A stretch of DNA of 59,497 nucleotides. Source: Selenomonas ruminantium subsp. ruminantium ATCC 12561. Lineage in GTDB: Bacteria; Bacillota; Negativicutes; Selenomonadales; Selenomonadaceae. The notes beneath the pieces are model-generated. The model was not told the DNA's origin, did not search any database, and saw only the letters and a program-made list of their open reading frames with translations. This document shows positions 6,373-50,300 of this stretch, piece after piece. The position numbers and the translations under genes are program-made. Each line of letters begins with the position of its first letter. Position 1 is the first letter of the stretch. The stretch lies in NCBI RefSeq assembly GCF_000424065.1, contig NZ_AUJE01000025.1, positions 1 to 59,497 of the forward strand. The letters run 5' to 3'.

Positions 6373-7473
6373 TCAGCGTGATGCCCGCCGCACCAAATAC
6401 GCACCGGCTGCCAGCCCGATAAGATTGGGCAGCCATACAGCCAGCATGGGCGCCACAACGCCGCTGCGTGCCAAAGCATTGCCCATAGTCATCAATGCAT
6501 AATAAACAAAAATGATGATAACGCTTATAGCGAAGCCTGCCGAAGAGCTGTTACGGGTAGGCTGCAAGCCCAAAGGAACGCCCACCAGCGCAAAGACCAA
6601 GCTGGCCATGGGAACCGTCACACGCTGATAAAGCTCAGCTTCCAGCTTATTGGTATCCACATACTGGGTTTTCAGGACGTTGATCTGTTCCCGCAATTCC
6701 TTCATCGTCATTTCTTCAAGTTCTTTTTGTTCCCGGACAATCTGCGTCGGATTTGCACTTATCGGCAGCACCTGTGTCTTAAACCGAACCATATGTTCGC
6801 TTTTGCCTTCCTCTTCGCTGATGTCATAAATGACACCGCTGTGCATTGTCCAAATATTGCCGTTCCACTCAGCATAATCCGCATTCTCTACGGTCTTTAC
6901 CTTGCCATCAGTGCCGAATTCCTGCAAGGTAATCCCCTGCAGCTGCTGAATATCCGCCTCATAACGGCGGGCATAGGCCAGGCGCTGAATTTTGTCACCA
7001 TTTATTTCCTTGAGAATGATATGGTCCTGCGACTTCATTCCTGTATTGCCTTCAATTTCATAATACAGGACGTTACGATAAGCGGTATTGGCCCACGGCA
7101 CCACATATTCATTAAACGCCATGGCAGCCAAGCTCACCATGATGCCCATGACAATAGCCGGCATGGCTATACGGGAAAAGCTGATCCCGCAGGACTTCAT
7201 CGCCGTGATTTCACTATTGCTGGACAAGCGGCCAAAGGTCAAAAGTGTTGCCAGCAGCATCGACATGGGGAAAGTCCAAATGACCACCCCCGGCAAGCCA
7301 AAGATAAAGATTTTGACTACTGCCTGCAGTGAGGCTCCATAATCCGTTATGTATTTAGCAATCTTGAACAGCGTTCCCGAACCGATAAACACCGCAGAGA
7401 ACGCGCAAATGCTGAAGACAAAGGTCATGGTAACCTCTTTGAATATATACTTGTCTAAAATTCGCAATCGCAT
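6373..7473 (-). CDS. lptF: LPS export permease LptF/LptG family
   Basis: A 366-residue inner-membrane permease (YjgP/YjgQ family). Helices at about 12-34, 55-75, 100-120 and three more near the C-terminus (about 275-360) enclose a periplasmic beta-jellyroll of about 150 residues. With LptB it extracts LPS from the inner membrane and passes it to LptC and LptA. Most diderms have two paralogues, LptF and LptG, but only one is present in this cluster, so F versus G cannot be decided. It follows lptB by 12 bases. The RBS AAGGAGAAC precedes ATG. Confidence 0.88.
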   Translation of the reverse strand: MRLRILDKYIFKEVTMTFVFSICAFSAVFIGSGTLFKIAKYITDYGASLQAVVKIFIFGLPGVVIWTFPMSMLLATLLTFGRLSSNSEITAMKSCGISFSRIAMPAIVMGIMVSLAAMAFNEYVVPWANTAYRNVLYYEIEGNTGMKSQDHIILKEINGDKIQRLAYARRYEADIQQLQGITLQEFGTDGKVKTVENADYAEWNGNIWTMHSGVIYDISEEEGKSEHMVRFKTQVLPISANPTQIVREQKELEEMTMKELREQINVLKTQYVDTNKLEAELYQRVTVPMASLVFALVGVPLGLQPTRNSSSAGFAISVIIIFVYYALMTMGNALARSGVVAPMLAVWLPNLIGLAAGAYLVRRASR

Positions 7474-7485
7474 TTTTCGTTCTCC

Positions 7486-8205
7486 TTACAAGGTGAAATT
7501 TTCACCCAGATAAAACTTTTTCGCTATCGGACTTTCTGCAATGGTCTGACTGCTTCCTTCCAGCAGAATTTTGCCTTCGCTCAAAATGTACGCGCGATCC
7601 ACAATCTGCAGTGTTTCACGCACATTATGGTCAGTGATAAGAATCCCCATGCCCCGCTGACGCAGATACTGGATAATTTCCTGAATATCCGCTACCGCCA
7701 GTGGATCTACACCAGCAAACGGTTCATCAAGCAGGATAAACTGCGGTTCCAAAGCCAGGCAGCGGGCTATTTCCACCCGGCGCCGTTCACCACCAGACAG
7801 TTCTGTGCCCTTGCGGTTGCGTACATGGGTGATATGGAATTCTGCGAGCAGTTCCTCAAAGCGTGACCGCTGTTCGGCCCGGGACAGCGCTGTCGTCTCC
7901 AAAATAGCCATGATATTTTCTTCCACCGTGAGCTTGCGGAAGATAGAGGATTCCTGTGTCAGATAGCTTATCCCCAACTCTGCCCGTTTGTACATGGGCA
8001 TTTTGGTGATGTTCACATCGGACAAGAACACCTCGCCAGAAGAAGGCTGTTCAAGGCCGACAATCATATAAAATGATGTGGTCTTACCGGCGCCATTAGG
8101 GCCTAAAAGGCCAACGATTTCGCCTTTTTCCACCCGCAAAGACACCCTGTCCACTGCTGTGTGCTCCTTGAATTTTTTTACCAGATTTTTCGCCTCAATA
8201 TGCAA
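7486..8205 (-). CDS. lptB: LPS export ABC ATPase LptB
   Basis: A 239-residue ATPase with Walker [10 protein letters not shown] (35-43), signature LSGGERRR, Walker [11 protein letters not shown] and the switch His in ITDHNVRE. Length and sequence style are typical of LptB, which powers LPS transfer through LptF/G. The start is TTG at 8205, with GGAGGGCAGG upstream; there is no in-frame ATG near. It lies in the order lptC-lptA-lptB-lptF, the classical gene set for the LPS bridge. Confidence 0.95.
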
Positions 8206-20045: not shown

Positions 20046-20864
20046 TTAGTCTCGGTCGTCCCGGCGCTCACGGCAGATACCTCTGTCAGCATTACGCAGG
20101 AAACGCAGCATATGGTCAACTTCCTCACAGGACGGCACCTCCTGCTCAATAACGCTAACCGCCTGCTGCAAGGTCAAGCCGGAACGATAGAGAATCTTAT
20201 AGGCTTGTTTGATGCTGCGGCGGGCTGCCGGTTCAATCCCTGCACGGGACATGCCTACAGCGTTAAGCCCAGCTACTTTAGCCGGCTGACCTGCCACAAT
20301 GGTAAAGGGAACAACGTCCTGCGTGAGACGGCTCATACCGCCAATCATCGCATTGCGGCCAATCTTGACGAACTGATGAACCCCCGTCATGCCGCCGATA
20401 ACCGCCCGATCCTCTACCACAGCATGACCAGCGAGACTGGCCACGTTGGACATGATGACCCGGTTGCCAATCACGCAGTTATGTGCGACATGCGTAAGCG
20501 CCATCAACAGACAGTCATTGCCAATACGGGTTTCTTCACCTTCACCAGTAGCCCGATGAACAGTCGTCCCTTCACGGATAACCGTCCGGTCGCCAATGCT
20601 AGTGTAACTTTTTTCGCCTTTGAACTTCAAATCCTGTGGTTCTTCACCAATGGAAGCCCCCTGAAAGATATGGCATTCACGGCCAATTTTCGTCCAGCCC
20701 GTTATCACCACATGGGGACCAATAATGGTATCTTCACCTATCTCCACATTGCTGCCAATGACACTATACGGGCCAATCTTAACACCAGCGGCCACTCTTG
20801 CGCCATCCTCAACAATTGCTGTGGGATGTATCTGTGCTTCTGCACTAATATTTTCCGCACTCAT
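20046..20864 (-). CDS. lpxA: UDP-N-acetylglucosamine O-acyltransferase
   Basis: A 272-residue left-handed beta-helix protein of hexapeptide repeats (about 10-190) and an alpha-helical C-terminus. It carries out the first step of lipid A synthesis. The region LMALTHVAHNCVIGN contains the catalytic His, and GMTGVHQFVKIG is typical of LpxA. RBS AAGGAG lies about 10 bases before ATG, and a perfect 8-bp hairpin (20885-20908) lies just upstream of it. Confidence 0.95.
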   Translation of the reverse strand: MSAENISAEAQIHPTAIVEDGARVAAGVKIGPYSVIGSNVEIGEDTIIGPHVVITGWTKIGRECHIFQGASIGEEPQDLKFKGEKSYTSIGDRTVIREGTTVHRATGEGEETRIGNDCLLMALTHVAHNCVIGNRVIMSNVASLAGHAVVEDRAVIGGMTGVHQFVKIGRNAMIGGMSRLTQDVVPFTIVAGQPAKVAGLNAVGMSRAGIEPAARRSIKQAYKILYRSGLTLQQAVSVIEQEVPSCEEVDHMLRFLRNADRGICRERRDDRD

Positions 20865-20884
20865 CTTCTACAACTCCTTATAAC

Positions 20885-20908
20885 ACCATCAGAACAGCAA
20901 CTGATGGT
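20885..20908 (-). promoter_or_regulatory. Leader hairpin just upstream of lpxA
   Basis: ACCATCAG (20885-20892) and CTGATGGT (20901-20908) form a perfect 8-bp stem with an 8-base loop, ending about 10 bases before the lpxA ribosome site. It lies in a 174-base spacer after fabZ. It has no T tract, so it is not a simple terminator. Confidence 0.4.
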
Positions 20909-40532: not shown

Positions 40533-41810
40533 ATGTCAGAAAACAAACACAGCAGCCTCGACAGGCTGGGTCTATGGATTCTCGGCGCCACCGTTCTGGG
40601 TGCTGTCACCGGCCTGATTCTGGGGAAAGACGCGCAGATGTTCGCACCTTTGGGCAATCTTTTTATGCAGCTAATCAAGATGATTGTTGTTCCCTTAGTT
40701 TTCTTTTCGCTGATTGGCGGTGCTGCCTCTCTGGGCAGATCCGGCAGTGCGGGAAAAATCGGACTCTTGACATTTGGCTACTATGGAATCACTACGGCCG
40801 TGGCTGTGGCACTCGGCCTTGCTGCCAGTGAATTCTTCCAGCCGGGCCGCGGCATTGAAATGGCCGCTCTGTCGGATGCCGCCATTCAGGTAGACCATAT
40901 CGAGGAAAGCACACAGATTCCCGGTTTTTGGGAAACGGTAACGGGATTTGTACCTGCCAATCCCTTCCAGGCACTCGTAGAAGGCAATATCCTGCAGATT
41001 ATCACCTTCGCCCTGTTTATGGGCTTTGCCGCCACTTATCTGGAAGAACACAAGAAAACCTATGTGCTGAACTTCTTTAACTACCTGACGGAATTATTCA
41101 TCAAGGTCATGATGGGTATCATGTATGCAGCCCCCATCGGCGTATTCTGTCTGATGGCCGATGCCACCGGCACCTTTGGTTATGCAATGCTCACCAAGAT
41201 TCTCTATCTGATTCTCCTCTACGCAATAGTACTGGCCATCGTTACCTATGGCATGATTGGCGGTTCCGTAGCACTGTTCTCTCGCTGCACCACTTATAAG
41301 CAGTTCTTTAAGAGCATGTGGAAAGTCCAGATTTTTGCCTTCTCTACAGCCTCCTCCATTGCTACCCTGCCGCTGAATATGAACACGGCCACCACAGAAC
41401 TAGGGGTATCCAAGGAAACCACTTCCTTTGCTCTGCCGCTGGGCGCCACCATCAACATGAACGGCAATGCCGCCTATTATGCGATGGCCGCAACCTTTAT
41501 CGCGCAGATGTATGGCATGGAACTTTCCCTGCCCCAGTACATTGCCATCATCATCACGAGCACTTTGGGTGCTGTTGGCCAGGCAGGCGTTCCTGGTCCA
41601 ACCCTGCTCGTCGTTGCCGTACTGGTTTCTGCCGGCATCCCCATCGAGGCTCTGCCTATCCTCTTTGGCGTAGACCGCATCTTTGATATGCTGCGCACCG
41701 CAGTCAATATCACCGGTGATGCCGCCTGTGCCACTATCGTGGACAGATTCCGTGAACCTAGCGCCCCCTCTGCAAAAGATGAATCCTTAGCTCCTACAGC
41801 CGAGCATTAA
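40533..41810 (+). CDS. Dicarboxylate/amino acid:cation symporter (DAACS family)
   Basis: A 425-residue membrane protein of the GltP/DctA family. The first hairpin loop reads FSTASSIATLP, the seventh helix NMNGNA (usually NMDGTA), the second loop GQAGVPGP, and the eighth helix DRIFDMLRTAVNITGDA. It imports acidic substrates with Na+ or H+. The Asn replacing Asp in the NMDGT motif and Asn in place of Thr suggest altered ion or substrate preference. The start at 40533 has GGAGG 7 bases upstream. It is a single plus-strand gene between minus-strand operons. Confidence 0.9.
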   Translation: MSENKHSSLDRLGLWILGATVLGAVTGLILGKDAQMFAPLGNLFMQLIKMIVVPLVFFSLIGGAASLGRSGSAGKIGLLTFGYYGITTAVAVALGLAASEFFQPGRGIEMAALSDAAIQVDHIEESTQIPGFWETVTGFVPANPFQALVEGNILQIITFALFMGFAATYLEEHKKTYVLNFFNYLTELFIKVMMGIMYAAPIGVFCLMADATGTFGYAMLTKILYLILLYAIVLAIVTYGMIGGSVALFSRCTTYKQFFKSMWKVQIFAFSTASSIATLPLNMNTATTELGVSKETTSFALPLGATINMNGNAAYYAMAATFIAQMYGMELSLPQYIAIIITSTLGAVGQAGVPGPTLLVVAVLVSAGIPIEALPILFGVDRIFDMLRTAVNITGDAACATIVDRFREPSAPSAKDESLAPTAEH

Positions 41811-41827
41811 TTCATTACCCCATAAAC

Positions 41828-41886
41828 AAAAATCCCCTCACAGCTAAGCGGCAATCCTGCCATTCAACTGTCAAGGGGATTTTTTC
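41828..41886. terminator. Bidirectional terminator between convergent genes
   Basis: AAAAATCCCCT (41828-41838) pairs with AGGGGATTTTT (41874-41884) around a 35-base insert with a small inner stem (GGCA/TGCC). It serves the symporter on the plus strand and the metal cluster on the minus strand. Confidence 0.65.
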
Positions 41887-41895
41887 GTTATGCAG

Positions 41896-42378
41896 TTAAA
41901 TTCGTTTTGCCGCCTGTTCAGCCAGCTGCTGTTCAATCGCTGCAAGTTTTGGTTTCAGCTTATCCCCATCATAAAGGATAAGCAATGAACCAGTCACAAC
42001 ATTTATACAGGCAGATTTTACGCCTGAAAAAGACTTGATGTATTCCTCCAATGGCTGCTGCCACTGCGGATTGGCCGCCAGCAGACTGCTGCGCAGGCGC
42101 ACCCTGCCGGGCACATAGGCGTCTACCTGAAAGCTGTCCACCAGTTCCTGCAATGGCTCAGCAGCTTTTTTCTCGGCATTGGACTTACAGCCAAAGAGTC
42201 TGCACGCATCGGCTTTCATCTTCTTATGATGCTGCCAGCCGTGGAAGAACGTCAATGCCGCCCAGGCAATGCCGAAGCCGGCATGAAGATTTTTCCCCGC
42301 CCACAAGGTCGCAATGGTTCCCACAGATGCCACGGTAAGTGGCAGACCTAAAGGTAAATTCTTCAAATCACACTGCAT
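41896..42378 (-). CDS. Small membrane protein with degenerate HMA-like domain
   Basis: A 160-residue protein. Two hydrophobic helices (about 10-28 and 32-48) are followed by a His/Lys-rich loop (FFHGWQHHKK, about 44-53). A domain with VPGRVRLRS (about 89-97) and INVVTGSLLILYD (about 125-137) follows. The second domain is shared by the proteins at 44511 and 45174 and fits the HMA_2-like family. It has no CxxC metal site. It is last in the P-ATPase operon, 21 bases after the ATPase stop. A role in metal handling at a membrane is inferred. Confidence 0.7.
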   Translation of the reverse strand: MQCDLKNLPLGLPLTVASVGTIATLWAGKNLHAGFGIAWAALTFFHGWQHHKKMKADACRLFGCKSNAEKKAAEPLQELVDSFQVDAYVPGRVRLRSSLLAANPQWQQPLEEYIKSFSGVKSACINVVTGSLLILYDGDKLKPKLAAIEQQLAEQAAKRI

Positions 42379-42399
42379 ATTAATCCCTCTTTTCCAGCG

Positions 42400-44514
42400 T
42401 TATGCTGCCCGGCGATTGCGAGCAAAGAAACCTTGCTTGCTGCTGTTCAATATCCGGCAGCTGTTAAGCACAACAGCCAGTGTAGCCGTATTATGAATCA
42501 CGGCCGCCCAAAGCGGGCTGATTTTGCCCAAAGCGCCTAAAAGCATGGCCGAGGAATTGACCAGAATGGTGGCCATGAAGTTCTGATGCACCAATTCCAT
42601 CGTACGGCGTCCGAGCTGCAGGGTTTCAATCAGACGTTCCGGGTCTTCGGAGTGAATGGTCACAGCCGAGGATTCGGCGGCGATATCCGTCTGCCGCCCG
42701 CCTAAGGACACGCCCACATCGGAGAAGGCCAGTGCCGGCGCATCGTTGATGCCATCGCCGACCATCATGACCGTACCACGCTGCTTGAGCTTGTTGACAT
42801 AATGGCTCTTGTCCTCCGGCAGGATTTCTGCATGATAGGAGTCGATATCCATGTTATGGGCCACTTCGGCAGCTACTTCCTTGCTGTCACCCGTGAGCAT
42901 GACAATTTCATCTACACCATGACGGCGCATCTGATTCAGCGTCTTTTTCATCTTCGGACGGATGGGGTCTTCGATGCCGATGACACCAACGAGTTCCTTA
43001 TCGCGGGCTACATAGAGCAGATTCTTGAAGGCCAGACCGTCAGCCAGCCCCTGGGTATCCTCAATACCGTTTTCCCGCAGGAATTTCAGGCTGCCGACAC
43101 GAATCAGGCCGCCCTTATACCCTTCAAAGTCAGGCACCTTGGCCTGCATGCCACGCGCCACAATGGTCTTGGAAGATGTATGCTGAGGAGACGTCCATTC
43201 CTGCGCCTCCACATATTTCTGAATGGCTACCGCCAGCGGATGAACGGAATGCTGCTCGGCGGAAGATGCCAAGAGAATCATTTCCTTTTCCTCTACGCCC
43301 TTAGCGGTTTTGACAAAGGCAATCTGTGGAATGCCTACCGTGAGCGTGCCGGTCTTATCGAGCACGACCGTATCGGTTTCGGCCAGGGCTTCGATATAGT
43401 TGCCGCCCTTGACGAGAATACCGCGCTTGGCCGCCGCACCGATGGCCGCCGACATCGCCGTAGCCGTGGACAGCTTGAGCCCGCAGGAGAAGTCGATAAA
43501 CAGGAGGTTCAGTACGCGCTGCCAATCGCGGGTAGCACCATAGACGATACCTGCACCGATAAAGGAAACCGGCACGAGGAAATTAGCCATCTTGTCGGCA
43601 AAGTTCTGCACCGGTGCCTTGCGGTTTTGGGCTTCTTCCACCAAATGGACGATATGGGCAAGGCTCGTGTCCTTACCAACCTTTTCGACCTTGATAATCA
43701 GTTCACCGGCCTCAACCACACTGCCGGCATAAACAGGCGAATCCGTATGCTTCATGGCCGGATTGGATTCACCGGTAATGGAGGCCTGATTAACCGCGGC
43801 ATCACCACTGATTACCCGGCCGTCCACGACGATTTTTTCACCGGTATGAGCCGCAATGGTATCGCCGACCTTGACCTGTTCCACGGGTACTTTGCGCTCG
43901 ACCTCGCCTTCGACCAGCCATACATAACGCTGGTCAAGAGATAAAAGCCCTGAGATATGGGTGCGGGCCTTTTCGGCGGCATAGCTTGTGAGCATTTCTG
44001 CACCATTGGACAGCGCCAACAGCGTCAGACTGGATTCGGGCTTGCCCGCCAGCACCGAGGCGATAACGGCCGTAGCCGTCAGGGTATCGGCATTGGGCTG
44101 ATGGTCTTTGACCACGCCGCTCACGCCGTTTTGGATAAACTTCCGGGCAATACCCAGCACCAGCAGGCTGCGCAAAATCTTGCTGCCAACAAAGAGCTGC
44201 GGCGAAGTGCGCTTTAAGACTTCCATCGCCGCAAAGCCCGCCAGGGAAATCACGGCATCCCGGCGGTATTCGGCCAGCCGTTCAGATGGCGTAATGGCCG
44301 CTTCCTGCAGACGCTTTACGGTTTCAATCAGCATTTTTTGGATTTCCTGCAGCTGATAAGCCGTCATCTGTCGTTTATACCAGATATGCACCTTGCGTTC
44401 ATCCACCGTCACCGCGATGATATTGCGGTTGCGGCGGATTTTGGCGGCAAGCTTGGCCCGTTCTTCACGGTTCAGTGCCGCCTGCAGGTGAAAATAACAA
44501 TTTCCGTACATCAT
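42400..44514 (-). CDS. P1B-type metal-transporting ATPase with S-C-G motif
   Basis: A 704-residue P-type ATPase. The N-terminal 65 residues are a degenerate HMA-like domain without CxxC. Signature motifs are TGES (247-250), DKTGTLT (386-392), an HP motif (HSVHPLAV), and GDGINDAPAL. In the metal-binding helix the usual Cys-Pro pair is replaced by F-S-C-G-L-K (342-347). This fits the less common P1B subgroups linked to iron, such as P1B-6. The start at 44514 (ATGA overlapping the previous stop) is chosen because AGGGTGG lies 8 bases upstream. It lies among three HMA-like genes. The substrate is not proven. Confidence 0.85.
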   Translation of the reverse strand: MMYGNCYFHLQAALNREERAKLAAKIRRNRNIIAVTVDERKVHIWYKRQMTAYQLQEIQKMLIETVKRLQEAAITPSERLAEYRRDAVISLAGFAAMEVLKRTSPQLFVGSKILRSLLVLGIARKFIQNGVSGVVKDHQPNADTLTATAVIASVLAGKPESSLTLLALSNGAEMLTSYAAEKARTHISGLLSLDQRYVWLVEGEVERKVPVEQVKVGDTIAAHTGEKIVVDGRVISGDAAVNQASITGESNPAMKHTDSPVYAGSVVEAGELIIKVEKVGKDTSLAHIVHLVEEAQNRKAPVQNFADKMANFLVPVSFIGAGIVYGATRDWQRVLNLLFIDFSCGLKLSTATAMSAAIGAAAKRGILVKGGNYIEALAETDTVVLDKTGTLTVGIPQIAFVKTAKGVEEKEMILLASSAEQHSVHPLAVAIQKYVEAQEWTSPQHTSSKTIVARGMQAKVPDFEGYKGGLIRVGSLKFLRENGIEDTQGLADGLAFKNLLYVARDKELVGVIGIEDPIRPKMKKTLNQMRRHGVDEIVMLTGDSKEVAAEVAHNMDIDSYHAEILPEDKSHYVNKLKQRGTVMMVGDGINDAPALAFSDVGVSLGGRQTDIAAESSAVTIHSEDPERLIETLQLGRRTMELVHQNFMATILVNSSAMLLGALGKISPLWAAVIHNTATLAVVLNSCRILNSSKQGFFARNRRAA

Positions 44515-45170
44515 ACGGTACGCCACCCTCTCATTAAGGTCACGGCCCACCAGAGCATCTGCGAGCCTGACGGGTACTGCTTGGTAAGCATCATCTTTCT
44601 AAGACCACGAAGCAGGAACAACAGCGAAGCCAAAGAGCTCATATCGAACCAGCCACAGGTATGGTCCTTAATCCACTGGCTGAACGCCCGTGCCGTATTG
44701 CGAATGCTGCGCGTGATGCTGCCGGCATGGGCTTCACTGCTGGCCATAGCCGCCATCTTGCCAAAGCCGCGGCTGATTTTGTCTGCCACGCCACCAAAGA
44801 ACTTGCGTTCCAGCCACTGCGCCAGCTGCTCCACATCCGCCTCATAGGCTTCATCGAACACCAGCAAAATGCTGCCGCTGACGGGATTTGCCTGCACGCT
44901 CTGCACATAGCTGAGCTTAATGAGCTGTTCTTCGAGCAGCTTAGATAGTTCCGGCGAAAGCTTGCTCACGCGATAACGGCGGCGTCCGGGCAGGCTCGAC
45001 ACCAGCTTAAAGGACGGCGCCAGGCAGACTGCTGCGGCCACTGTGCGCTGTACTTTGCGTAAAGGCATAGCAGCCGTGCCGCCCATCTTTGGTGCACCGC
45101 CACCTGCTACCATCTGGCGAATGCTCTTGCCGATAGCCGCCCCCATCATAAATCCAGATACATAAGACAT
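44511..45170 (-). CDS. HMA-like domain protein with Gly-rich N-terminus
   Basis: A 219-residue protein. The N-terminus has a glycine-zipper-like stretch (GFMMGAAIGKSI). An HMA_2-like domain follows, with LPGRRRYRV (about 60-68) and NPVSGSILLVFDE (about 95-107). The C-terminal half is amphipathic and basic with one possible membrane segment (about 180-196). Its stop overlaps the ATPase start by 4 bases (ATGA), so the two are translationally coupled. The domain lacks metal-binding Cys. RBS AAGGAGG precedes ATG. Function inferred: accessory or scaffold protein for the ATPase. Confidence 0.7.
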   Translation of the reverse strand: MSYVSGFMMGAAIGKSIRQMVAGGGAPKMGGTAAMPLRKVQRTVAAAVCLAPSFKLVSSLPGRRRYRVSKLSPELSKLLEEQLIKLSYVQSVQANPVSGSILLVFDEAYEADVEQLAQWLERKFFGGVADKISRGFGKMAAMASSEAHAGSITRSIRNTARAFSQWIKDHTCGWFDMSSLASLLFLLRGLRKMMLTKQYPSGSQMLWWAVTLMRGWRTV

Positions 45171-45173
45171 TCG

Positions 45174-45473
45174 TTATTTCCTCCTTGCATGCGTCATAAT
45201 ATACTCTTCCACCTTGCGCAATTCTGCGTTGCGGCGGAGTCTTTCCGGCTCATAAAGGATTAATATGGAACCCGATGTGGTGTTGGTCTGCACGCTGTCA
45301 ATCTCACCAAAAGCCAGCAGCTGGCTTTCGACTTCCGCAGCCAGACCGGCATTGCCAATGAGATTATTGCTATACAGGCGCACCCGTCCGGGCAGATAGG
45401 ACGAGATATCCACAGAACGGATAAATAAATCCAGCTTATTGGTGGGGATTTGGATGTTTCCCAGCAAACTCAA
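45174..45473 (-). CDS. Small HMA-like domain protein
   Basis: A 99-residue protein that is almost only the HMA_2-like domain: YLPGRVRLYS (about 26-35) and NTTSGSILILYE (about 64-75), then a basic C-terminus. There is no signal peptide, no membrane helix and no CxxC. The start is TTG at 45473 with GGAGG 9 bases upstream. It stops 3 bases before the next gene's start. Along with the two other copies, it points to a three-member family built around one ATPase. Confidence 0.75.
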   Translation of the reverse strand: MSLLGNIQIPTNKLDLFIRSVDISSYLPGRVRLYSNNLIGNAGLAAEVESQLLAFGEIDSVQTNTTSGSILILYEPERLRRNAELRKVEEYIMTHARRK

Positions 45474-45501
45474 AACAATTTCCTCCCTGCTGACAAGAAA
45501 A

Positions 45502-45530
45502 GACTGCCGCTAAAGTCAAGAGCGGCAGTC
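45502..45530 (-). terminator. Attenuator-like hairpin inside the metal operon
   Basis: GACTGCCGCT/AGCGGCAGTC, a perfect 10-bp stem with a 9-base loop, followed on the minus strand by CTTTTCTTG. It lies between the 69-residue gene and the first HMA gene. A weak T tract suggests partial read-through. Confidence 0.5.
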
Positions 45531-45556
45531 TCCTTTCTCGTCAAAAACGAATTATA

Positions 45557-45766
45557 TTATTTAGCCTTTTTAGCTTCCTGAGCTGCGATTAAATCTTCGA
45601 GCTCTTCCTTCTGGCGCTGCAGTTCAGCAACCGGAAGTTCAGCAGCGGGAGCAGCCTGCTGCATAGCAGCCAGCTGAGCTTCACGCTCCTGCATGAAACG
45701 ATAACCAAAGATACCAGCAACGGCACCTACAGCCAGACCAATCCAAAAATCAGTTTTCTGGAACAT
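45557..45766 (-). CDS. 69-residue membrane protein heading the metal operon
   Basis: One glycine-rich helix (about 7-24, WIGLAVGAVAGIFGY) and a Glu/Gln/Ala-rich coiled coil (about 25-69) that ends in Lys residues. There is no homologue I can name. The start at 45766 is chosen since AAGGAGG lies 9 bases upstream; upstream ATGs are too close to that site. It is the first gene after the strong promoter at 45906-45934, and a hairpin after it probably makes it the most abundant product. GxxxG-like packing and a charged coil suggest a membrane-shaping or scaffold protein; this is inference. Confidence 0.7.
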   Translation of the reverse strand: MFQKTDFWIGLAVGAVAGIFGYRFMQEREAQLAAMQQAAPAAELPVAELQRQKEELEDLIAAQEAKKAK

Positions 45767-45872
45767 CGAATCCATCCTCCTTAACATAAAACAACATATA
45801 AACAGGGGCTATCCCCGCCTATTTCTTTCTTGGGCATCCTGTTTCCCCATTCTGCCATTGGAGAACAAAATC

Positions 45873-45892
45873 GATAATGTAGAAATATTATC
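45873..45892. promoter_or_regulatory. Fur-box-like palindrome
   Basis: GATAAT (45873-45878) and ATTATC (45887-45892) form a perfect inverted repeat with an 8-base AT-rich spacer. These are the half-sites of Fur boxes (GATAATGATAATCATTATC). It covers about +7 to +26 of the metal operon transcript, a site where a bound repressor would block transcription. Confidence 0.55.
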
Positions 45893-45905
45893 AATTTCAT
45901 TCCTA

Positions 45906-45934
45906 ATCTTAGCAAAATCAAGGACTTTTGTCAA
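45906..45934 (-). promoter_or_regulatory. Strong promoter of the metal/ferrosome-like operon
   Basis: Minus strand TTGACA (45934-45929), 17-base spacer, TAAGAT (45911-45906) with an extended -10 TG motif (TGCTAAGAT). The leader is about 130 bases. Confidence 0.8.
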
Positions 45935-46007
45935 TGAAAATACCCTTTACCAATTAATATTATAGGCAATCAATTGTTAAATTGTCAATATATTTAGCAA
46001 AATCAAG
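45909..46007. repeat. Pair of 14-bp direct repeats, one per divergent promoter
   Basis: TTAGCAAAATCAAG occurs at 45909-45922 (overlapping the minus-strand -10 and spacer) and again at 45994-46007 (overlapping the plus-strand spacer and -10). Both are exact. The middle stretch 45923-45993 is AT-rich and carries no gene. Confidence 0.7.
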
Positions 46008-46010
46008 AAT
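45982..46010 (+). promoter_or_regulatory. Candidate promoter of the exported pyrophosphatase gene
   Basis: TTGTCA (45982-45987), 17-base spacer, AAGAAT (46005-46010). The leader is about 90 bases and includes a CAGGTGA/TTCACCTG inverted repeat before the ribosome site. Confidence 0.5.
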
Positions 46011-46105
46011 AATTATTACTCACAAAAGCAGGTGAATCCTGGCGGTCCCGCGAAATGTAAAATAAATCATTTCACCTGTCTAACACAAAAGAAAGGAACA
46101 TCTCT

Positions 46106-47209
46106 ATGCGAAAGAAAAATTATTCCGTTTTATGGGGTTGCGCTATGTTTTTTATCGGCTTGCTTCTTTGCTCTGCTCCGGTTGCAGGAGCTAACAATCG
46201 CCAGTCTAACATCAACTATCCTTCTTTTATGCAGGGCATTGACTATGGCAAAGGCGTAACCTATGTAGTGGGGCATAATCCTCCTGACTCCGACAGCGTA
46301 TGCACAGCCATTGCTTATGCCAGCCTAAAACGACAGTTAGGAGTAAACGCAGAGGCACGGATTGCTAGTTTGCCCAATGCAGAAACGACCTACGCCCTAA
46401 ATTATTTCGGCATCAGGGAACCGTTGCTGCTTGACGATGCCTCCGGCAAAAACATTATCCTGGTAGACCATAATAGTTTTGCCCAGGCGGTCAAAGGCAT
46501 GGAGAAAGCCAATGTACTGGAAATCATCGACCATCACAATCTGATTGGTGATGTAAAAACTTCGGCCCCCGTTTATTACCGCAATATGCCTGTCGGCTGC
46601 ACCTCCACCATTATTTGGCTTGAATATCAGGAAGCCAATGTTCCCATAACCAGAGAGATTGCCGGCATGATGCTCTCCGCGATACTATCCGATACCGATA
46701 ATCTGCAAAGCTCCACGACCACGGATTTGGACAGACAGGCTGTTGCCGATTTAGAAAAAAAAGCGGGCATTAAGAACAGAAATGCCTATTTCCTCGCAAT
46801 GGAAGAAGAATTGGCCGCCTATAAGGATATGTCGGACCAGGAAATTTTCTATTCCGACTACAAGGAATTCACCATAAACGGCATCTCCTACGGCTGTGCT
46901 ACGGTCGTTGCCCTGACCCCTGAAAAAAGGATTGCCTTAGAGAAACGGCTTAGCGAATGGATAGCGAAAAATTATGCATCGCAAAAAATGGATATGCTTT
47001 TCTTAAAAATTCACGACCTGGAAACCTACGCCGCAACGCTATCCTGCTATGGTGACGGCGCTTTAGAATGTGCCACCCACGCATTCGGCAAAGCAGAAGC
47101 AAACCGAATTTCCCTTGATAAGAATATGTCCCGGAAAAAGGTAGTCCGTCTCCTTCAACCACAAGTAGCCAATTGGGCAGCCAACAAAGCTAAAAACAAA
47201 GCCGCATAA
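46106..47209 (+). CDS. Exported family II (DHH) inorganic pyrophosphatase
   Basis: A 367-residue protein with a clear signal peptide (about 1-30: basic start, hydrophobic core, APVAGA-N). The remainder matches the Mn-dependent pyrophosphatase (PpaC) family: GHNPPDSDSVCTAIAYA, ILVDHN, EIIDHHNL, MLSAILSDTDN and the C-terminal SRKKVV. It hydrolyses pyrophosphate to phosphate. Family II enzymes are normally cytoplasmic, so export is unusual. The C-terminal active-site motif reads SRKKVV where the usual form is SRKKQVVP. RBS AAAGGA lies about 7 bases before ATG. It is divergent from the metal operon. Confidence 0.88.
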   Translation: MRKKNYSVLWGCAMFFIGLLLCSAPVAGANNRQSNINYPSFMQGIDYGKGVTYVVGHNPPDSDSVCTAIAYASLKRQLGVNAEARIASLPNAETTYALNYFGIREPLLLDDASGKNIILVDHNSFAQAVKGMEKANVLEIIDHHNLIGDVKTSAPVYYRNMPVGCTSTIIWLEYQEANVPITREIAGMMLSAILSDTDNLQSSTTTDLDRQAVADLEKKAGIKNRNAYFLAMEEELAAYKDMSDQEIFYSDYKEFTINGISYGCATVVALTPEKRIALEKRLSEWIAKNYASQKMDMLFLKIHDLETYAATLSCYGDGALECATHAFGKAEANRISLDKNMSRKKVVRLLQPQVANWAANKAKNKAA

Positions 47210-47235
47210 CCACCAATCAAGACTTACAATGCAAA

Positions 47236-47330
47236 CACTAAGCCCGGCGGCTGATGATGCTTTTCCATAGCTTTTGACAAGCCTGTCTATGGCGAAGGAA
47301 AAGTATTATCAGCCGCCGGGCGTCTTAGTA
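47236..47330. repeat. Long near-perfect inverted repeat
   Basis: About 95 bases between convergent genes form one long hairpin. ACTAAG pairs with CTTAGT at the ends, GCCCGGCGGCTGAT (47242-47255) pairs with ATCAGCCGCCGGGC (47308-47321), then CTTTTCC with GGAAAAG, and CCATAG with CTATGG. There is no T tract, so it is more than a terminator. Confidence 0.65.
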
Positions 47331-47349
47331 CTTCTTTACAACTATGTAA

Positions 47350-50300
47350 TTATTTATTCTCAACCTTATAAGCCACCGCATACATGGTAGGCAGCACCAA
47401 GAGTGTCAACACAGTAGCTACCAGCAGTCCGCTGGAAATCGCCACCGCCATCGGCCCCCAGAAGGAGCTTGCCATCAGCGGAATCATGCCGAGGATGGCC
47501 GCTGCCGCGGTCAGCATAATGGGACGGAAGCGCAAAACAGCCGAATCCACCACGGCATCATAGGGGCTTTCGCCGTCTGCGATATGCTTCTTTATCTGGT
47601 CGATAAGGATAACCGAGTTGCGGATAATCATGCCAAAGAGCGCCAGTATCCCCAGTTCCGCCACAAAGCCCATGGCCGAATCGGTAATCAGCATGCCCCA
47701 GACCACGCCGATAAGGCCTAGCGGCGCCGTGAGCAGGGTCAATAACATCTGCTTGCCGCTGTCGAGCTGGAACATCAGCAGGGTCATGATGACAAAAAGC
47801 ATCGCAGGAATCGGAATCAACAGATACCCCAGCGAATTATTGCTGTTCTCCAGTGCCCCTGCCGGTTCGATATTACAACCCAAGGGCAAATCTTCCCGCA
47901 GTTGCTTCGTTGCCTCATACGCCTTCTGCGTTGCATCATTGGCCGTACCGCTATGGATATCGGCCTGCACCGTAATGGTGGGCATCAAATTGCGCCGCTT
48001 GATCAAACCATCTTCAGCACCATAGGAAATTTTGGCAATCTGCTCCAAGGGCACATAACCGGCATTGCCCAGATAAATGGGCAGGCTGCCGAGCTTGCCT
48101 AAATCCTCTCGGTCGGCTACCGCCAGACGCAGGGTGATATCGAGCGTCCGGTCGCCGGTGTAGAACTGCGCCGCCGTTGCGCCGGTGACCTCCGTGTAAA
48201 TCATCTGCTTTACCGCCTGTGCACTAAGCCCCATGGCTCGCAGCTTGTCCTGGTCAAGTTCCAGCTTGACGACCTTGCTCTTTTCATTCCAATCCAGATT
48301 CACATTGTAGTTGTTGCTGTCAGCCGCCACAATGTCAGCTACTCTGTGCGCCAATTCCTTAGTCTGCTCGGTGCTGTAGCCCGTCACACGGAGCATCACC
48401 GGATAATCCGCCGGCGGGCCGGTCTGGATATACTGGATTTTTGCCCGCACATCGGAAAATTCCTCGTTAAAGGCCGTTTGCAGTTCGGCGGCCAGCTTTT
48501 CGCGTGCCTGCACATCCTTGGCCACCAGTACAAAATGGGTGACATTATCCGTCTCGGCCTTCGGGTCAACGGTCAGCACAAAGCGAGGTGTATAACGGCC
48601 TACATAATAGGCATAGTTTTCGAGTAAATCCTGCCGTTCCTGCAAAAATGCGGACATACGGGCAGCCACTTCCTGCGAAGCCGCCTTGGACGAACCTTCC
48701 GGCAGTTTGAGTTCCATCAGCACTTCCGGTCTGGTGGACGTGGGGAAAAATTCCTGACGGATATGCGGCATCATCAGCAGCGACACCACAAAGAGCGCGA
48801 CGGTCCCCAACAGCACGGCCTGCCGATGGCTCAAAAACCAACGCAAAACCTTGCGGAACTCCACATAAAAGCGGCTCTGATAGGGATTGATTTCCCCTTG
48901 GGCATCGGTTTTCGGCTTTACGCGAATCATATAGGTGCCCAAAAGCGGGGCAACCATGACCGACACCACCCACGAGAGCACCAGCGCAATGCCAATAACG
49001 GGGAACAAGGCATTACAGAACTCACTGGCCATGCCCTTGGAAAACGCCACGGGAATAAAGCCCGCGCAGGTGATAAGCGTCCCCGTCAGCATGGGCTTGG
49101 CGGTAGCCTTAAAGGCAAAGCACGCCGCCTCAAAGCGTGAGAGCCCCGCCTCAAGTTTTACACTCATCATCTCCACGGCGATAATGGCATCATCAACGAG
49201 CAGGCCCAAAGCAATAATCAGCGCACCCAAGGATACCTTGTGCAAATCAATCCCCAACAAATACATGGAGATAAACACACCACAGAGCACCAACGGGATA
49301 CAGCAGGCCACCACCATACCGGTGCGAACGCCCAAGGACAAGAAGCTAACCGCCAACACAATCACAATCGCTTCCATCAGCGTCTTGATAAACTCGTTGA
49401 TGGAGGATTTGACCACTTCCGACTGATTGGCCACCTGACGGATTTCTACACCTGCGGGAACTTCGGCCTGTACAGCTGCAACCTGTTTTTTTAAGTTTTC
49501 GCCGAGGTCAAGGATATTGCCCCCATCTTCCATGGATACGGCAATGCCCACAGCCGGTTCGCCATCAAAGAACATCTTATTATCGGCCGGGTCGCTGAAC
49601 TTACGGCTGACTTTGGCAATATCGCCCAGACGGAAGTTGCGGCCATTCACGCTGATGGGCATTTCCTCCACGGCTTTTACATCAGCAAACTGACCAGTGA
49701 GGCGCAGGTAGACATTGGAAGAATCCGTATCCACCATCGCCGCTGCCGTCATTTCATTCTGCGTCTTTAAGGCATTAGAAATCACCTGTGGACTGATACC
49801 CAGCTCCGAAAGTTTCATGGTATCGAGTTCCACATAGATTTTTTCCTTCTGCTCCCCGATAAGCTCTACTTTTTGCACACTGGGAACACTCAAGAGCAAG
49901 CGGCGGGTCTTTTCCGCATACTGCCGCAATTCCTCGTAGTTATAGCCATCGCCGGTCACGGCATAAATCGTGCCGTATACATCATCAAAGCGGTCATTGT
50001 AATAAGGGCCGTATACACCCTCCGGCAGATTGCGTTTGATATCCTCGCAGAAATTGCGCACATCACGCCAGGTCGGACGAATATCTGCCTTGGCAATGGT
50101 ATCGTCCAGTTCCACATAGATTACCGTCTGCCCCGGACGATTTTCGCTTTTGATTGCTTTCAGATGCGGCGTATCCTGCAGGCGTTTTTCCAGCTTGTCC
50201 GTGACCTGCTCCTGCATTTCCTCCGCCGTAGCGCCCGGCCAGGCCGCCGTCACGACCATCTGCCGGATGGTGAACTGCGGGTCTTCCATGCGCCCCAGCT

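Follow-up and report, generated by a model that had tools for sequence, protein, structure and literature searches.

A probably exported family II inorganic pyrophosphatase of Selenomonas ruminantium and its apparent mobile lineage in gut bacteria

The soluble inorganic pyrophosphatases, families I and II, are regarded as housekeeping enzymes of the cytoplasm. The sections of a 2024 review drawn on here (PMC11210485) call them cytoplasmic, and the sole signal-peptide passage in those sections concerns a plant enzyme. A Mn/Co-dependent polyphosphate-degrading activity is described from Haloferax, its gene not being identified in the part of the account used here (PMC13318637). Ferrosome (fez) clusters, to which the neighbours of the present gene bear some likeness, are described in the corresponding parts of two papers (PMC11334425, PMC12574912) with no pyrophosphatase named. 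In the literature on exported or Selenomonas pyrophosphatases, with most subscription papers and bioRxiv outside its scope, we found no description of an exported family II enzyme. What looks new here is an exported lineage of a known enzyme family, and a lineage of this kind, spread over several phyla, would depart from the housekeeping view.

The gene lies at 46106-47209 on the plus strand of the window, the whole 59,497-nucleotide stretch of S. ruminantium subsp. ruminantium ATCC 12561 that was analysed. As read from the window, it starts with ATG behind a ribosome-binding-site-like AGAAAGGA (46090-46097, plus strand) and encodes 367 amino acids; the open reading frame, Pfam, NCBIfam, PDB sequences and predicted fold all contribute to its annotation as family II pyrophosphatase-like. 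The DHH domain (PF01368, residues 53-193, 46262-46684) and the DHHA2 domain (PF02833, residues 233-347, 46802-47146, including K253 and R343-K344), both on the plus strand, score 72.8 and 45.8 bits against Pfam gathering cut-offs of 28.1 and 27, so that the domain content is that of family II. The stricter NCBIfam naming rule does not extend to the protein, since NF003877 gives 278.3 bits, 4.7 under its 283-bit equivalog cut-off. The top solved relative by sequence is the B. subtilis family II pyrophosphatase PpaC (1k23, E 4.5e-51), with which it shares both domains, fold and active-site positions.

Active-site positions were transferred through a phmmer alignment of the 367-residue protein to 1k23, using ten residues which, with their B. 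subtilis numbering, we take to make up the family II active site. Metal ligands H9, D13, D15, D75, H97 and D149 correspond to H57, D61, D63, D121, H143 and D196, H98 (listed with the metal ligands) to H144, and substrate-binding K205, R295 and K296 to K253, R343 and K344. All ten are present, which upholds the intact DHH pyrophosphatase motifs that a preliminary description had read in this protein. The C-terminal motif departs from that of PpaC-type enzymes: SRKK is followed by a one-residue gap and V, the Q being missing, whereas the full family II signature is SRKKQ according to the section of PMC11210485 used here. The protein is for this reason called a variant rather than a canonical family II member.

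The AlphaFold model (mean pLDDT 87.7, 31 sequences) matches 1k23_C with Z 33.1 over 304 residues (49-355, rmsd 4.5, 39% identity over the aligned part) and 1wpn_A with Z 31.3 (rmsd 1.1 on the N-terminal core). Yeast exopolyphosphatase reaches Z 21 and NrnA/GdpP types about 20. These values bear on a rather unlikely alternative, in which the protein is exported but acts by nature on an extracytoplasmic compound other than pyrophosphate, such as a nucleotide, a short polyphosphate or some other phosphoanhydride. DHH proteins, exopolyphosphatase and nucleotide phosphodiesterases do share one fold, and to our knowledge pyrophosphate is not an obvious product in the periplasm. Yet the family II match stands some 12 Z units above the other types, the ten pyrophosphatase positions are all kept, and the sequence match to yeast PPX1 (2qb6/2qb7), which has the same superfamily fold (Z ~21), spans residues 115-262 only (E 6.6e-5).

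The same alternative gains something from more distant relatives, which we set out in a table of 87 rows comprising close relatives (group A), a second exported type (B), the Phascolarctobacterium type (C), a further exported type (D), anchored proteins (E) and cytoplasmic homologues. The ten positions are kept in every row of group A (11/11), group C (4/4) and the cytoplasmic set (20/20), and in 39 of the 40 anchored rows, D13 being absent in one. Group B, however, has N in place of R295 in 10/10 rows, and group D has lost H9, D13 and H97 in 2/2, so that some exported relatives may not be pyrophosphatases. For the Selenomonas protein we consider it probable that it is a family II (DHH/DHHA2) inorganic pyrophosphatase with an intact active site, working outside the cytoplasm; its activity and substrate we infer from the domains, residues and fold given above.

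Export is predicted from the N-terminal extension, its hydrophobicity and the model, and this is a difference from PpaC. A putative Sec signal peptide covers residues 1-29 (46106-46192, plus strand) and reads MRKK, a hydrophobic core and PVAGA, with cleavage expected after AGA and ahead of NN. With homologue start codons chosen by us, the protein has 55 residues ahead of the G-H motif and a best 12-residue Kyte-Doolittle mean of 2.45, the 11 group-A proteins have 52-55 residues and 2.31-3.48, and the 20 cytoplasmic homologues have 6-9 residues and 0.62-1.30. The extension and hydrophobic core are thus lacking from 20/20 cytoplasmic homologues, which agrees, at the level of prediction, with the Sec signal proposed in the preliminary description. 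The model has a helix at residues 5-23 and pLDDT below 50 at 23-33. A loose A-x-A test was dropped as evidence because 19/20 cytoplasmic rows also pass it. Lipoprotein export was considered and rejected, there being no lipobox match in the 367-residue protein.

Cleavage of the signal is itself a prediction, and group B shows no A-x-A match after the core in 10/10 rows; both points would suit an N-terminus that serves as an uncleaved anchor, leaving the catalytic domain on the cytoplasmic side. We regard this as extremely unlikely. Positively charged n-regions favour an N-in, C-out orientation under the positive-inside rule, and the net charge here is +3; an A-G-A site follows the hydrophobic core; and the cytoplasmic role is already filled, since the genome also encodes an intact 548-residue CBS-type family II pyrophosphatase without a signal (G000:C6). 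That enzyme shares catalytic domains and motifs with the exported protein but differs in its length, an inserted region and its grouping with cytoplasmic enzymes. Genome searches gave no match to a family I or a membrane pyrophosphatase. The mature Selenomonas protein is predicted to cross the inner membrane, a departure from the location that is usual in, although not part of the definition of, family II.

Selection appears to act on the mature part, with dN/dS of 0.06-0.12 against six orthologues (at dS of 1.35-2.04, near saturation) and 0.19 against a 95%-identical one. Four neighbouring genes give lower values than the last of these, 0.009-0.041, so that constraint on the exported pyrophosphatase may be weaker. 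The signal region evolves faster, with dN of 0.21-0.46 versus 0.11-0.18 for the mature part in the six orthologues.

The gene is divergent from an HMA/P1B cluster on the minus strand, as the preliminary description had it, with 318 bp between 45787 and 46106. The cluster begins with a 76-residue protein without a Pfam match (45557-45787, an open reading frame) and continues over 41896-45473 with Pfam HMA_2, E1-E2_ATPase and Hydrolase domains: HMA_2 proteins at 45174-45473, 44511-45170 and 41896-42378, and the P1B ATPase at 42400-44550. A P1B ATPase with three HMA_2 proteins carrying PGRxR motifs recalls ferrosome clusters. A consensus scan places two sigma-70-like promoters of the cluster at 45906-45988 on the minus strand, with counterparts read in relatives: TTGACA-18-TATAAT (45988-45959, 12/12 consensus) and TTGACA-17-TAAGAT (45934-45906, 10/12). 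Downstream of them lies a dyad, GATAATGTAGAAATATTATC (45873-45892), whose sole exact match in the genome this is; it is matched in five of 20 cluster upstream regions (the window, G167, G085, G113 and G239), and two further regions have different partial matches. An Rfam scan of 41500-47600 gave two sub-threshold matches only. A dyad-like leader, TTCTCCAATGGCAGAATGGGGAA (minus strand, window 45843-45865), is conserved in relatives L155-L162 and sits between cluster promoter and first gene in Selenomonas HMA/P1B clusters.

The preliminary description had proposed that the enzyme releases phosphate for an iron-phosphate mineral and is co-controlled with the ATPase operon. In this reading phosphate, or metal freed from pyrophosphate, would be supplied to a ferrosome-like compartment of the cluster. 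Its attraction lies in the divergent arrangement, seen in three near-identical genomes (the window, L044 and L045), in a second arrangement in the divergent Selenomonadaceae MAG L055/G299, whose copy of the gene is followed directly, on the same strand, by small-HMA-HMA-ATPase genes, and in a weak plus-strand promoter match at 45982-46010 (9/12) that abuts the first minus-strand promoter of the cluster. Linkage was seen in these two arrangements only, one of them confined to a single species. Few as they are, they remain the strongest point in favour of a link.

Comparison of the junction argues the other way. In blastn searches of window 45000-48500 against L155, L157 and L158, the cluster of G167, G239 and G113 lies next to the same RND gene and no pyrophosphatase intervenes; homology to the window ends near 46024 and restarts near 47350-47363. 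The segment missing from these relatives (46025-47349, edges approximate) holds the pyrophosphatase gene and a palindromic repeat, so that the gene was either gained here or lost there with the cluster undisturbed. The dyad and cluster promoters persist in relatives without the gene. In L055, on our own reading, a promoter-like TTGACT-17-TAAAAT separates gene and cluster. Nine orthologues, situated in L055 or at other loci, were compared by eye with the window species over 200 bp of upstream sequence, and no shared operator was found; copies at different loci resemble one another over some tens of bases at most ahead of the start, and this within closely related subsets. The proposed co-control thus finds no support in the gene-less junctions or in the upstream regions of unlinked orthologues compared by eye. 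The repeat copy itself (47228-47327) belongs to a REP-like family of about 95 bp with 105 matches in the genome, some being the two strands of one copy, and often in short tandem clusters such as that on contig C8 near 20316-20885.

Co-occurrence points the same way. With an orthologue threshold of E below 1e-200, the ATPase is found in 52/62 family genomes of a class sample, which gives the background, and there in 4/5 genomes with a close exported enzyme versus 48/57 without. A close pyrophosphatase orthologue occurs in 13 of 189 family genomes, 11 of which have the ATPase orthologue; G356 has the ATPase's first 77 residues only, followed by the contig end (L045), and G149 has it as fragments only. 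The S. ruminis locus L175 (G149 contig C1, ~6833-7644) holds pieces of the cluster's first gene, the ATPase and one HMA_2 gene. No ATPase orthologue was found in 10/10 group-B genomes (completeness 71-98%). Exported enzyme and ATPase do occur together, then, as had been anticipated, but at background level. Apart from L055/G299, neither linkage nor co-occurrence is conserved in the way expected of a cluster component; the link to the cluster is weak overall, supply to a mineral was rejected as the main reading and is in our view very unlikely, and the gene most likely landed beside the cluster by chance.

Other loci of the gene are of several kinds. Two-partner-secretion (TPS) loci, which pair a ShlB/FhaC transporter with a filamentous adhesin, hold the orthologue of strain HD4 and that of pSRC7, in both cases between the TpsB-type transporter gene and the TpsA gene. 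Plasmid pSRC7, of S. ruminantium TAM6421 (29,781 bp), is typed as mobilizable by PLSDB. The two pyrophosphatase genes have 99.8% DNA identity (361/362 residues), and the two intergenic stretches match as well; identity is lower for the TpsB proteins, at 93%, and for the N-termini of TpsA, at ~62%. In S. ruminis the orthologue lies downstream of another TPS pair, in the order acetolactate decarboxylase, M15 peptidase, pyrophosphatase and NlpC/P60 protein. The other loci compared, in which L044 and L045 represented the window species, have no match to those TPS genes, and their flanks vary, several being short. In Selenomonas AE3005 the gene is followed by an IS256-like transposase, as we read its sequence. 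A plasmid collection yielded 57 matching records, one at 60-80% identity (pSRC7) and the rest below 60%, and the matches listed start at residue 48 or later; the 13 matching records of a phage collection were all below 60%. Movement of the lineage between gut bacteria would account for neighbours that differ from genome to genome, and the varied loci suggest, on sequence comparison, a single gene that is mobile. The loci in which an exported pyrophosphatase gene lies inside or beside TPS genes are L053, L194 and L195, with L034; in S. ruminis it is accompanied by other exported enzymes, the decarboxylase and the M15 and NlpC/P60 peptidases. An acetolactate decarboxylase gene occurs near the exported enzyme in L050 and L056.

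Relatives were taken as the best 80 of 264 proteins found with two peptide patterns in 84,980 species genomes, so that taxon counts are no census, and some contigs may carry an incorrect MAG label. Besides Selenomonas and Phascolarctobacterium, these best 80 include proteins that begin with a membrane anchor or a lipobox-like sequence and are labelled Erysipelotrichaceae, Mogibacterium, Lachnospiraceae, Coriobacteriales and, for one genome, Elusimicrobiota. The titles of 21 of the 40 anchored rows name a gut compartment, two more name deer and six nothing; 11 of the 40 carry RUG codes, presumably rumen genomes. Among the neighbours listed for the 80 loci, the largest common non-DHH family reaches 10/80, this being the GutM-like gene of group B: just before each of the ten group-B genes (L057-L066) stands a member of a single family, and the one member run against Pfam was identified as GutM.

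Trees were built from catalytic cores with N-termini removed. Rows had been labelled exported by us from those N-termini, and the tree alone is independent of the labelling. Eleven of the 80 loci were left out because they nearly duplicated others, had truncated frames or lacked a clear start (L045, L048, L056, L075, L088, L093, L101, L105, L110, L115 and L121). In the 85-row tree, where several long branches meet and from which L014 and L032 are absent because the motif applied did not match, 19 cytoplasmic rows form one side of a branch supported at 100/98. A reduced tree, with the CBS enzyme added, long branches L011, L013, L107 and L112 left out and 14/40 anchored rows kept, splits exported (38) from cytoplasmic (18) rows by one branch (99/97). 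Forms from Selenomonadaceae, Phascolarctobacterium, anchored Bacillota, Actinomycetota and Elusimicrobiota fall on the exported side, opposite to B. subtilis PpaC-type enzymes. The CBS enzyme falls on the cytoplasmic side, and on that ground we rejected an origin by recent duplication from the cytoplasmic enzyme of the same host. Since one branch suffices to split the rows, one change of location suffices too, under partial sampling and with the root unplaced; a single ancient relocation would be enough to account for the exported forms included in the tree. The Selenomonas gene would seem to be part of a distinct and mobile lineage of exported pyrophosphatases in gut bacteria.

In the mechanism that we propose, the Sec signal would carry the protein across the inner membrane of its diderm host; after cleavage the mature enzyme (about residues 30-367) would fold in the periplasm, bind divalent metals and split pyrophosphate into two phosphates. 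The pyrophosphate might come from nucleotide breakdown, lysed neighbours or metal-pyrophosphate complexes. In Gram-positive relatives the anchor would hold the enzyme at the cell. The protein would thus be one member of an extracytoplasmic lineage moving between gut bacteria, and at least one of these moves would have been by plasmid and island transfer. We suggest only tentatively that gut and rumen bacteria share a dedicated lineage of this kind, periplasmic and soluble in Negativicutes and mostly surface-anchored in Gram-positive relatives, an idea more doubtful than the assignment of the protein itself. If it is true, the dissemination of this lineage by plasmids and islands would imply competition outside rumen cells for pyrophosphate, whether free or complexed with metals, iron and manganese among them. 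It also raises the question of where pyrophosphate outside gut bacteria originates and why it is worth an enzyme, which we did not see posed in the searched literature on exported or Selenomonas pyrophosphatases.

Exported DHH/DHHA2 paralogues occur in the same genus at L011, L012, L014 and L154. Metal ligands H9, D13 and H97 are lost in L011 and L014, L012 shares the N-terminal part of L011, and L042, which holds the place of L154, begins alike; these paralogues are likely dead enzymes kept as open frames. A further protein, L091, is a 576-residue DHH/DHHA2 protein with a signal-like start and, by eye, apparent Sel1-type repeats ahead of its DHH domain.
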